The position numbers were made by a program, and so were the translations under genes. The notes below the pieces were generated by a model, which ran no database searches, was not told the DNA's origin, and saw only the letters and a list, made by a program, of their open reading frames with translations. From the NCBI GenBank assembly GCA_018817545.1, contig JAHITL010000049.1, positions 1-16,464 on the forward strand: 16,464 nucleotides of DNA, read 5' to 3'. Below, piece by piece: positions 13,595-15,836 of this stretch. Source of the DNA: Patescibacteria group bacterium (GTDB taxonomy: Bacteria > Patescibacteriota > Patescibacteriia > Patescibacteriales > GWC2-42-12). Position 1 is the stretch's first letter; every line of letters begins with the position of its first letter.

Positions 13595-13621
13595 TTAGCA
13601 CTCTTGACAAGGGAGTGCTAA
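13595..13621. promoter_or_regulatory. CIRCE operator (HrcA binding site)
   Basis: TTAGCACTC (13595-13603), nine bases, then GAGTGCTAA (13613-13621): a perfect match to the CIRCE inverted repeat bound by HrcA. Its nine-base centre contains the -35 box TTGACA. The operator thus overlaps the promoter of hrcA itself, predicting autorepression that is relieved on heat shock. Confidence 0.97.
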
Positions 13622-13651: not shown

Positions 13652-14338
13652 ATGGACAAAAGGACGATTTTAATTCTTAATATTATTATTAAAGAACATA
13701 TAAAAACAGGCGCTTTGGTTGGGTCAGAAGTTCTAGTTGACAAATATAAATTAGATATTTCTCCGGCTACTGTTAGAAATGAAATGGCTGAATTAGAGAA
13801 GACTGGATATATTGCGCAACAATATACTTCATCTGGTCGTATTCCTACTGAAAAAGCATATAATTTTTATTTAGAAAATTTGGAAGAAAAAAAAATAGGA
13901 ATAACAGAAAGTAAAATTTTTTCTGAATTATTAAAAAATAAAGATGAATTAAGTTTTAAACAAGTTGCTAAAGAACTTGCTAAAGTCTCTAATAACGCTG
14001 TATTTTGGGCATTTCATCAGAATAATTTGTATTATACAGGTATTTCTAATTTATTATCTCAACCTGAATTTTGTCAGACTGAATTGATTTATGATATTTC
14101 TAAAATTATTGATCAGGTAGACGAAATAATAAATAATATTTTTAATAAAATTAAAGAAGAGCCGCAAATTTTTCTTGGGTCGACAAACCCTTTTGGAGAT
14201 TTTTGCGGAACAATTTTAGTTAAATATAAATTTAAAAATAATATTGGTTTATTTGGTATTCTTGGTCCAATGAGAATGGATTATGAAAAAAATTTAGCTT
14301 TAATAAAATTTATTAATAATAAAATCATTGAAAAATAA
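13652..14338 (+). CDS. hrcA: Heat-inducible transcription repressor HrcA (short form)
   Basis: A 228-residue HrcA, the repressor that binds CIRCE. The N-terminal winged helix is clear: SEVLVDKYKLDISPATVRNEMAELEKTGYIAQQYTSSGRIPTEKAY (25-70). The C-terminal part keeps the family end IFLGSTNPFGDF (173-184), LVKYKF and GILGPMRMDYEKNLALIKFI (202-221). Typical HrcA proteins are about 340 residues, so roughly 100 residues of the middle (GAF-like/insertion region) are missing or shrunken, while both conserved ends are present. That looks like a compact form rather than a broken gene. The perfect CIRCE just upstream supports function. A 4-base gap leads to grpE. Confidence 0.93.
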   Translation: MDKRTILILNIIIKEHIKTGALVGSEVLVDKYKLDISPATVRNEMAELEKTGYIAQQYTSSGRIPTEKAYNFYLENLEEKKIGITESKIFSELLKNKDELSFKQVAKELAKVSNNAVFWAFHQNNLYYTGISNLLSQPEFCQTELIYDISKIIDQVDEIINNIFNKIKEEPQIFLGSTNPFGDFCGTILVKYKFKNNIGLFGILGPMRMDYEKNLALIKFINNKIIEK

Positions 14339-14342
14339 CACT

Positions 14343-15011
14343 ATGTTTGATAAAAAAAAATCATCAGAAGAAAAAATAAAACAAGGAATTTATAAACATT
14401 ACAAAGGCGGAAAATATCGTGTTTTATATTCAGGACATAATAGTGAAAATAAAGAAGAAGTGGTCGTTTATCAATCAATTGCTGATGATAAAATTTGGGT
14501 TAGACTAAAAAAAATGTTTTTAAGTCAAGTTGAAAAAGATGAAAAAAAAATAAATAGATTTGAATATGTTAGTAATTTAGAAAATGATAGTTTTGAAGAA
14601 AAATATAAACGCGCTTTAGCTGATTATCAAAATTTATTAAAACAAAGCGCTAAAGAGAAAATGGAATTTGCTAGATTTGCTAATGAACGGTTGCTTTATG
14701 AGATTTTGCCAGTTTATGATAATTTAAAAACTTCAATCCAATATATTGACGAAGAGTCTAAAAAAAATGGATGGGTTGTTGGTATTGAATATATTATTAA
14801 ACAATTTAGCGATGTTTTAAAAAGTTTAGGAATTGAAGAAATAATAACTAATAAAGAAAAATTTAATCATGATTTAATGGATGCGATTGATAGTGAAGAA
14901 ACTGATAATAAAAAAGAAGATGGTTTAGTCGCTAAAGAAGTAAAGTCAGGTTATAAGTTAAATGGTAAAATAATTGTTCCAGCAAAAGTAGTTGTTTATA
15001 AGTTGAAATAA
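14343..15011 (+). CDS. grpE: GrpE nucleotide exchange factor fused to an N-terminal DUF1653 domain
   Basis: A 222-residue protein from the ATG at 14343. A TTG at 14328 would add 5 residues and overlap hrcA; I prefer ATG because every other gene uses it. The N-terminal part (about 13-75: GIYKHYKGGKYRVLYSGHNS, EEVVVYQS, IWVRLKKMFLSQV, INRFEYV) has the layout of DUF1653, a small domain normally found alone (YRHYKG...VVY...WVRP..MF). From about 84 it is a GrpE: long helix YKRALADYQNLLKQSAKEK (88-106), FANERLLYEILPVYDNLKTSI (112-132), FNHDLMDAI (174-182) and C-terminal beta wing VKSGYKLNGKIIVPAKVVVYK (200-220). GrpE drives ADP release from DnaK. The length fits a DUF1653 module (about 80) plus a short GrpE (about 140). 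What the DUF1653 part does is unknown. No dnaK or dnaJ follows. Confidence 0.9.
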   Translation: MFDKKKSSEEKIKQGIYKHYKGGKYRVLYSGHNSENKEEVVVYQSIADDKIWVRLKKMFLSQVEKDEKKINRFEYVSNLENDSFEEKYKRALADYQNLLKQSAKEKMEFARFANERLLYEILPVYDNLKTSIQYIDEESKKNGWVVGIEYIIKQFSDVLKSLGIEEIITNKEKFNHDLMDAIDSEETDNKKEDGLVAKEVKSGYKLNGKIIVPAKVVVYKLK

Positions 15012-15146: not shown

Positions 15147-15581
15147 ATGTCATCAATTATTAAATGGGCTCCATTTCTTGAATCTTTTGAAGATATGGAC
15201 AAAATGTTTGAAGGTTTTATTCCAACAAAAAGTGATTTTATTAATTATGTTCCAGCAGTAGATGTTTATCAAGATGAAAATAACGTTTATGTTGAAACTC
15301 AATTAGCAGGAATTGATCCTGAAAAAGTTGATATTTCTGTTGAAAATGATGTTTTAATTATTAAAGGTGAAAGTGAAAAGAAAAGCGAAGTTGAAGATAA
15401 AAATTATTATCGTAAAGAAATTAAACGTGGTAGTTTTTATCGTAGCGTGTCTTTGCCTTCTTGTGTCACTGCTGAAAAAGCTAGCGCAGAAGCAAAAAAC
15501 GGTATTTTAAAAATTATTATTCCAAAAGTTTTAGAAGCTAAGTCAAAAATGATAAAAATTAGTATAAATAAAAATAAATAA
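15147..15581 (+). CDS. Small heat-shock protein (Hsp20/alpha-crystallin family)
   Basis: A 144-residue ATP-independent holdase. The alpha-crystallin domain covers about residues 35-128: VPAVDVYQDENNVYVETQLAGIDPEKVDISVENDVLIIKGE (35-75), an acidic/basic loop with RKEIKRGSFYRSVSLP (89-104), and the diagnostic A-x-x-x-N-G-x-L (AEAKNGILKIIIPK, 114-127). The C-terminal tail carries a weak I-x-I-like motif (IKISI, 136-140), the contact used for oligomers. A single Cys106. Length is typical. It follows hrcA and grpE in the same direction, so it is probably part of the heat-shock response, but 135 bases and a repeat lie between. The start codon is preceded by CTT, no Shine-Dalgarno. Confidence 0.94.
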   Translation: MSSIIKWAPFLESFEDMDKMFEGFIPTKSDFINYVPAVDVYQDENNVYVETQLAGIDPEKVDISVENDVLIIKGESEKKSEVEDKNYYRKEIKRGSFYRSVSLPSCVTAEKASAEAKNGILKIIIPKVLEAKSKMIKISINKNK

Positions 15582-15690
15582 AATAAGAAAAATAAGAAAA
15601 GTAAGATAAATAAGAAAAATAAGAAAAGTAAGATAAATAAGAAAAGTAAGAAAAGTAAGAAAAGTAAGATAAATAAGAAAAGTAAGAAAA
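15582..15690 (+). repeat. C-free A/G/T tandem array, left arm
   Basis: About 109 bases built from AATAAGAAA, AGTAAGAAA and AGTAAGATA words (9-10 base period, with a higher-order 27-base unit seen twice early on). There is no C at all on this strand. It begins directly at the hsp20 stop codon. Stops occur frequently in the frames, so it is not coding. Confidence 0.85.
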
Positions 15691-15700
15691 ATTTCCTTTT

Positions 15701-15769
15701 GTCATTCCCGCAGAGCCCGGAAAGCGGGAATCCATTTCATTTAAATTTTAATACTGAGTTTTTATTAAA
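15701..15769. repeat. Palindromic repeat element, copy B, within the tandem array
   Basis: Head GTCATTCCCGCAGAGCCCGG with paired GCGGGAATCC (15701-15732), then the tail ATTTCATTTAAATTTTAATAC...GAGTTTTTATTAAA (15734-15769). The same head and tail occur at 11988-12103. Tandem-array words stand on both sides (15582-15690 and 15770-15836), so it looks inserted into the array. No clear target duplication is visible because the flanks are A-rich. Confidence 0.75.
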
Positions 15770-15836
15770 AAATAAGATAAATAAAAGAAATAAGAAAAGT
15801 AAGAAAGCAAGAAAGTAAGTAAGAAAGCAAGAAAAA
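15770..15836 (+). repeat. A/G/T tandem array, right arm
   Basis: Continues the GTAAGAAA/ATAAGATA words of the left arm but more degenerate, with GCAAGAAAGTAAG copies (two C present). The remaining bases to the next start (15837-15884) are AT-rich and contain TATAAT at 15856. Confidence 0.75.

Follow-up and report, generated by a model that had tools for sequence, protein, structure and literature searches.

GrpE is normally viewed as an invariant component of the DnaK cycle, with a disordered tail that aids client exit; why would it carry a folded domain of another family at its front end? The question is raised by a gene at positions 14343 to 15011 of contig JAHITL010000049.1 (assembly GCA_018817545.1) from a Patescibacteria group bacterium, which was analyzed over its entire 16,464 bases (contig C71 of the source genome, referred to here as the window). 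A preliminary description had proposed that one frame in this region joins DUF1653 to GrpE within a heat-shock operon. We find that the fusion is real and recurrent and that it represents one of several interchangeable states of the GrpE front end; the function proposed below for the fused module is putative. The gene and its parts are as follows:

14343..15011, plus strand: DUF1653-GrpE fusion gene, 222 amino acids (open reading frame [ORF] translation, Pfam, homologues, and an AlphaFold2 model with a mean predicted local distance difference test score of 89.7)
14385..14567, plus strand: DUF1653 module (residues 15-75), with a predicted beta barrel of Tudor/SH3-like type
14568..14609, plus strand: residues 76-89, the junction that links DUF1653 to the contact segment of GrpE (AlphaFold2 model and family comparison)
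14592..15008, plus strand: GrpE core, with a long helix (84-133), a second helix (143-161), and a beta domain (164-221)
14610..14645, plus strand: residues 90-101, a conserved RALADYQNLLKQ segment; its aligned counterpart in E. coli GrpE is the part of the coiled coil in contact with the DnaK substrate-binding domain

The single frame proposed earlier holds: the ATG at 14343 opens 222 codons without an internal stop, and the stop codon ends at 15011 (an in-frame TTG 15 bases 5' of the ATG is a possible alternative start). When the whole protein was scanned with Pfam, DUF1653 (PF07866) matched residues 15-75 with 76.6 bits (E 2e-21; cut-off, 23.5) and GrpE (PF01025) matched residues 63-220 with 117.9 bits (E 5e-34; cut-off, 25.8); the lack of a PF07866 match, which would have spoken against the fusion, is thus ruled out. 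The two halves, scanned apart, each kept their own match, the DUF1653 half alone reaching 78.7 bits against the same cut-off. The Pfam scan of the window protein gave no NUDIX match, a domain present in its relatives only, and candidate matches to XisI, reverse-transcriptase connection, and Prim-pol 4 all fell below their cut-offs. A genome-wide profile search returned one DUF1653 match and one GrpE match in the source genome, both at 14343-15011.

The predicted structure has the GrpE fold, with the coiled-coil helix beginning at residue 84. Residue 90 aligns with residue 64 of E. coli GrpE, and R90, A93, N97, and L98 of the RALADYQNLLKQ segment are invariant across 44 sequences; by this alignment, the protein retains the coiled-coil segment equivalent to E. 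coli L63-R75, which contacts the DnaK substrate-binding domain in that species. The DUF1653 module, preceded by only 14 residues, is predicted to be a Tudor/SH3-like barrel and matches the fold of a solved member of the family (PDB entry 3be3); fold matches beyond 3be3 indicated no function.

The source genome is in 131 contigs and is 89% complete, which leaves some room for a frameshift, misassembly, or binning error that fused two genes. This explanation is refuted by recurrence of the fusion across genomes, and we regard its probability as negligible. Both domains share one frame in 27 grpE genes of the order surveyed, which is Falkowbacteria-like, and in 118 of the 120 homologues listed among 718 in databases; in the other two (P0088 and P0101), NUDIX stands in place of DUF1653. 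A relative in the same genus (G391) has the same two-domain frame, with a DUF1653 stretch 81% identical to that of the window. The nearly constant length of the junction argues against an artifact as well, as does purifying selection on both parts. For DUF1653, the ratio of nonsynonymous to synonymous substitution rates (dN/dS) is 0.06-0.34 in 7 of 8 pairs, the eighth being saturated at synonymous sites; selection on this part is thus purifying in all 7 computable pairs. The GrpE part of the same genes gives 0.02-0.24 in 5 of 8 pairs, the others being saturated at synonymous sites.

Across the 111 genomes of the order, DUF1653 was found in 45 and GrpE in 106. Using custom DUF1653 and NUDIX models together with frame length, we classified 103 grpE genes from 101 genomes as 27 DUF1653-GrpE (window included), 22 NUDIX-GrpE, 3 DUF1653-NUDIX-GrpE, and 51 with neither module; the architecture thus recurs elsewhere in the Candidate Phyla Radiation, as the preliminary description had suggested looking for. 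Five genomes with GrpE fragments (G408, G430, G480, G481, and G482) were left unclassified, the second GrpE copy of G413 was excluded, and a 293-codon frame (L111) with GrpE only was counted as plain. The 22 NUDIX assignments comprise 18 clear cases (E 3e-30 or better) and 4 weak ones (G436, G437, G438, and G451; 8e-6 to 8e-3). Pfam, run on 12 of the 22, placed 9 above the NUDIX cut-off (G437 by 1.7 bits) and 3 below it (G436, G438, and G451). One further gene, G452, has no NUDIX by Pfam and was reassigned by eye to degenerate NUDIX because it resembles its sister G451; counted in this way, the plain total is 50 instead of 51. It was grouped with degenerate NUDIX for comparisons of CIRCE, operon identity, tail length, and motifs and was held apart as doubtful in the GrpE tree. 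Pfam found all three domains in the one triple fusion scanned, and a triple-fusion query gave further examples of all three kinds among 120 matches shown of 627.

Beyond the order, one genome of the same class (G238) encodes a NUDIX-GrpE. In a phylum sample of 379 genomes, DUF1653 occurs in 107 and GrpE in 360, and of 108 DUF1653 matches, 95 are in frames no longer than 120 codons, in agreement with the earlier statement that DUF1653 is normally a stand-alone protein. A phylum-wide spread of the fusion was not seen in a partial check: 10 long-frame GrpE genes from outside the order gave no match to either model and by eye carried tail-like or upstream stretches, about 200 further GrpE matches lying beyond this check. 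The domains and the heat-shock setting of the preliminary description stand, its suggestion of a sensing, binding, or delivery role toward the chaperones is conjectural, and what changes is its DUF1653-specific picture. The same GrpE place can be filled by DUF1653, by NUDIX, by the two together, or by a disordered tail, and since these fillings are exchangeable, the fusion is neither isolated nor particular to DUF1653.

Exchange in place is visible between close relatives. Within one genus, G405 (DUF1653-GrpE) and G407 (NUDIX-GrpE) share 93% identity in HrcA, 91% in the GrpE core, and 96% in Hsp20; their DNA identity of about 90% drops to background just 3' of hrcA and recovers at the codons for LADYQNLLK. 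G472 (DUF1653-GrpE) and G469 (plain, with an acidic tail) are 89% identical in HrcA and 90% in GrpE, and their DNA breaks likewise. G386 and G385 both carry NUDIX, from two different starred NUDIX clades, on GrpE cores that fall in a single starred clade. When the three labels plain, DUF1653-GrpE, and NUDIX-GrpE are mapped onto the GrpE tree, each needs 13 changes, at least 5 of which are forced by starred branches; the tree was built quickly from 140 columns, half of its forks are open, and its stars merit less trust. On the DUF1653 tree, fused and stand-alone domains need 2 changes. A single clade was neither rejected nor demonstrated for all fused DUF1653 (approximately unbiased test, p-AU 0.41) or for all fused NUDIX (p-AU 0.33). 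Taken together, the near-identical operons, the changes on the GrpE tree, and the tree of fused DUF1653 favor few fusion origins followed by replacement or loss in place. In the Falkowbacteria-like order, the GrpE front end is an exchangeable slot.

Swapping of modules on a GrpE core that stays nearly unchanged is also what would be expected if GrpE merely supplied heat-shock expression and a dimer scaffold to a passenger, with DUF1653 or NUDIX doing housekeeping of its own (damaged-nucleotide or nucleic-acid handling) and having no physical role at DnaK. Two further observations fit a passenger: all three triple fusions have some 145 residues of NUDIX domain between DUF1653 and GrpE, and a second, separate DUF1653 copy is found in 0 of 30 genomes with fused DUF1653 versus 13 of 79 others (p 0.018, relatedness uncorrected; G382 and G408, with DUF1653 at contig ends, excluded), as if the fused copy served the same job. 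Against it, just two module types occur among the 103 classified genes, by the two models and frame length, and Pfam found no other named module in the longer plain frames scanned. The near-fixed DUF1653 junction argues the same way, although common descent could account for it, as does the DnaK-directed role of the replaced tail region in other bacteria (sources cited below). We consider a passenger possible but doubtful.

The fusion gene lies within a heat-shock operon, as originally described, with a perfect CIRCE repeat and hrcA before it and hsp20 after it:

13595..13621, plus strand: putative HrcA operator, CIRCE element TTAGCACTC-N9-GAGTGCTAA, perfect 9-9-9 repeat 30 bases 5' of the hrcA start
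13652..14338, plus strand: hrcA, heat-shock repressor, short form of 228 amino acids (PF01628, 3.4e-17)
15147..15581, plus strand: hsp20, small heat-shock protein (PF00011, 2.3e-19)

The repeat at 13595-13621 matches the controlling inverted repeat of chaperone expression (CIRCE). Its GCACTC-N9-GAGTGC core (13598-13618) has no mismatch, where 0.9 matches would be expected at ≤3 mismatches, and its place 5' of the operon is that of a putative operator of an HrcA/CIRCE regulon. An exact core lies near the hrcA start for 24 of the 27 DUF1653-GrpE genes (25 counting the window's own perfect repeat), 19 of 23 NUDIX-GrpE genes, all 3 triple fusions, and 32 of 48 plain genes. The usual order in the relatives examined is hrcA-grpE-hsp20 followed by dnaK and often dnaJ, and this holds whatever the module. 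Some relatives have an extra gene between hsp20 and dnaK; these intervening genes are varied, and inspection by eye revealed no pattern. In the source genome, dnaK and dnaJ are on a separate contig (C46, 3,648 bases). As the window is the whole of C71 and C46 ends 334 bases before the start of the dnaK match, a contig break between hsp20 and dnaK is likely, rather than a relocated dnaK.

Several side observations concern the operon. A second exact CIRCE core occurs in the source genome at C74:4442-4462 (L267). HrcA frames in the window and the relatives examined are mostly of about 230 residues, which is shorter than usual. Purine-rich tandem repeats (periods 9, 18, 20, and 27) occupy 15570-15834, directly 3' of hsp20, and the gene 3' of them runs past the contig end. 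In G389 (L148/L215), a separate NUDIX gene lies between hsp20 and dnaK, and the GrpE of that operon carries DUF1653.

The geometry of the slot differs with its filling. Between DUF1653 and the position matching residue 64 of E. coli GrpE there are 12-15 residues in 26 of the 27 DUF1653-GrpE proteins, the window's included; the exception is G389, whose linker is 81 residues long through an inserted tandem repeat. This linker (L148; P0006 and P0007) carries four to five copies of a ENPPTPLCQGGENS-like repeat, apparently one of intergenic type that has invaded the coding sequence. In NUDIX-GrpE proteins, the junction is 0-11 residues and NUDIX is nearly continuous with the GrpE helix. Plain GrpE proteins have at the same place a charged stretch with a median of 36 residues (22-76, n=48; first Met taken as the start, with the G435 second copy and G485 excluded). 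A hydrophobic tail motif was found in the pieces flanking DUF1653 in 1 of the 27 DUF1653-GrpE proteins (6.4 expected from shuffles), and the window protein itself lacks a disordered N-terminal tail bearing such a motif; we did not treat a disordered tail as a requirement for membership in the GrpE family. Among plain tails, an acid-flanked hydrophobic pattern occurs in 5 of 7 within family f3 (3.1 expected) and in 9 of 41 outside it, versus 9.2 expected by shuffling. As the pattern is not above the shuffled rate in these 41 tails, we make no claim that a proven release motif is being exchanged.

What might a folded domain do at this position? In E. coli, the substrate-binding site of DnaK is bound by the disordered tails of GrpE, which promote client exit, and the coiled-coil stretch L63-R75 touches the substrate-binding domain (PMC12915176); in M. 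tuberculosis, removal of the GrpE tail blocks substrate release (PMC10803776). We tentatively favor, with somewhat less than even confidence, the view that the protein is an exchange factor acting on DnaK in the ordinary way, in which a folded, heat-induced binding module has taken the place of the disordered tail beside the DnaK substrate-binding domain. The gene product would be a genuine GrpE under CIRCE/HrcA control, with its C-terminal part acting as an ordinary dimeric nucleotide exchange factor and the usual tail swapped for DUF1653. DUF1653 would lie some twelve residues N-terminal to the part of the helix in contact with the substrate-binding domain, a placement we infer because the contact stretch is kept at residues 90-101 with a folded domain just before it. 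Each dimer would thus hold two DUF1653 barrels next to the client cleft, the site at which the tails act in E. coli and M. tuberculosis, and tail-driven client release would presumably be lost. The slot would most probably hold stress modules for which induction by heat shock, dimerization through GrpE, and proximity to DnaK are of advantage.

A broader reading extends this to every filling, disordered tails as well as the folded modules (DUF1653 and at least two lineages of NUDIX). The GrpE N-terminus would be a domain-exchange site on the DnaK machine, at which recombination in the interval from the end of hrcA to the first helix of GrpE replaces modules and tails; each filling would reset how, or for what ligand, DnaK frees its clients (for example, by binding or destroying a stress nucleotide beside the DnaK substrate-binding domain). 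In this full form we think it unlikely.

Under the favored reading of a replaced tail, DUF1653 would be a Tudor/SH3-like binding domain, and its neighbors elsewhere offer a lead. NUDIX pyrophosphohydrolase genes tend to lie close to stand-alone DUF1653: one is nearby at 11 of 42 DUF1653 loci but at 2 of 40 loci in the control set (Fisher p 0.0085; p 0.016 when the one fused case is removed). All 14 NUDIX matches near stand-alone DUF1653 are on the DUF1653 strand, and NUDIX, with 11 members, is the commonest Pfam family among 139 scanned neighbor ORFs. We take this association as a possible functional lead for the family. In one genome (G396, L066), a stand-alone DUF1653 gene is flanked by three NUDIX genes, all on the same strand. 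Of 11 other long DUF1653 frames obtained, 6 were scanned against Pfam: DUF1653 and NUDIX share one frame without GrpE in L031 (G095); GIY-YIG occurs without GrpE in L312 (G224), where the DUF1653 match of 22.2 bits is just below the cut-off of 23.5; L308 (G200), likewise without GrpE, has DUF1653 with a phosphoribosyl-ATP pyrophosphohydrolase-like match below cut-off (E 0.0066), too weak to use; and the other three gave no second Pfam family. DUF1653 proteins also occur in many phages and some giant viruses (BFVD library).

The tie to NUDIX could mean that the slot links nucleotide signaling to DnaK, NUDIX hydrolyzing a DnaK-bound or stress-made dinucleotide such as diadenosine tetraphosphate (Ap4A) as GrpE opens the nucleotide cleft, and DUF1653 binding the same class of ligand. 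The RExxEE residues are kept by 20 of 26 fused NUDIX or NUDIX-like domains, and the DUF1653-NUDIX frame in L031 is in keeping with a shared ligand. A review (PMC10148737) adds that NUDIX hydrolases degrade Ap4A and that azido-Ap4A cross-linked E. coli DnaK. The closest curated NUDIX models in the four proteins scanned, however, are MutT, NudI, and NAD diphosphatase, all far below cut-offs and so indicating no substrate, and nothing supports nucleotide binding by DUF1653. Six fused domains are without RExxEE, five of them in two clades, and five NUDIX-like domains have wholly lost the catalytic motif, so that we judge signaling of this kind improbable. The five degenerate domains (L135, L138, L161, L172, and L178) persist on GrpE in these two clades.

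In all, members of a bacterial order whose genomes are small carry folded domains, a few of them types that keep enzyme residues, where the GrpE tail would be, and have exchanged them while the rest of the operon stays nearly constant. This variation points to an exchange site, unstudied so far, on a core chaperone component, and relatives that differ by such a natural exchange, G405 and G407 for instance, allow direct tests of what the GrpE tip and the still unexplained DUF1653 domains do.

In the titles and abstract starts searched, a coverage apart from subscription papers and preprints, no description or role of such a GrpE fusion was found. A GrpE review (PMC12987570) contained none of five fusion terms, and DUF1653 was mentioned in one paper of the library searched, a chromate study that lists it in a table of proteins. 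Passages of PMC12641178 state only that the Candidate Phyla Radiation retains DnaK, DnaJ, and GrpE. Databases already name these proteins GrpE with both Pfam domains; the architecture is therefore recorded and yet, as far as we have found, undiscussed.

Among known systems, the Tudor-like RNA polymerase interaction domains of CarD, UvrD/PcrA, and Mfd resemble the predicted DUF1653 structure, with 7-19% identity in structure alignments; a tether bringing DnaK and GrpE to RNA polymerase could be drawn from this modeled likeness, and we hold it to be very improbable. The solved DUF1653 protein 3be3 (Bordetella bronchiseptica) is a separate chain of 91 residues, whereas the window's DUF1653 is fused to a co-chaperone; fused members have also drifted, many having NSE instead of HSE. 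The NUDIX-GrpE and DUF1653-NUDIX-GrpE proteins of the order share the operon, the GrpE core, and the junction site with the window protein and differ in carrying NUDIX, alone or between DUF1653 and GrpE. The GrpE proteins of E. coli, G. kaustophilus, and M. tuberculosis and human GrpEL1 are like the window protein in coiled-coil helix, second helix, beta domain, conserved segments, and CIRCE/hrcA setting. The difference lies in the region aligned to approximately the first 57 E. coli residues, where the disordered tail and distal coiled coil are replaced by a folded DUF1653.
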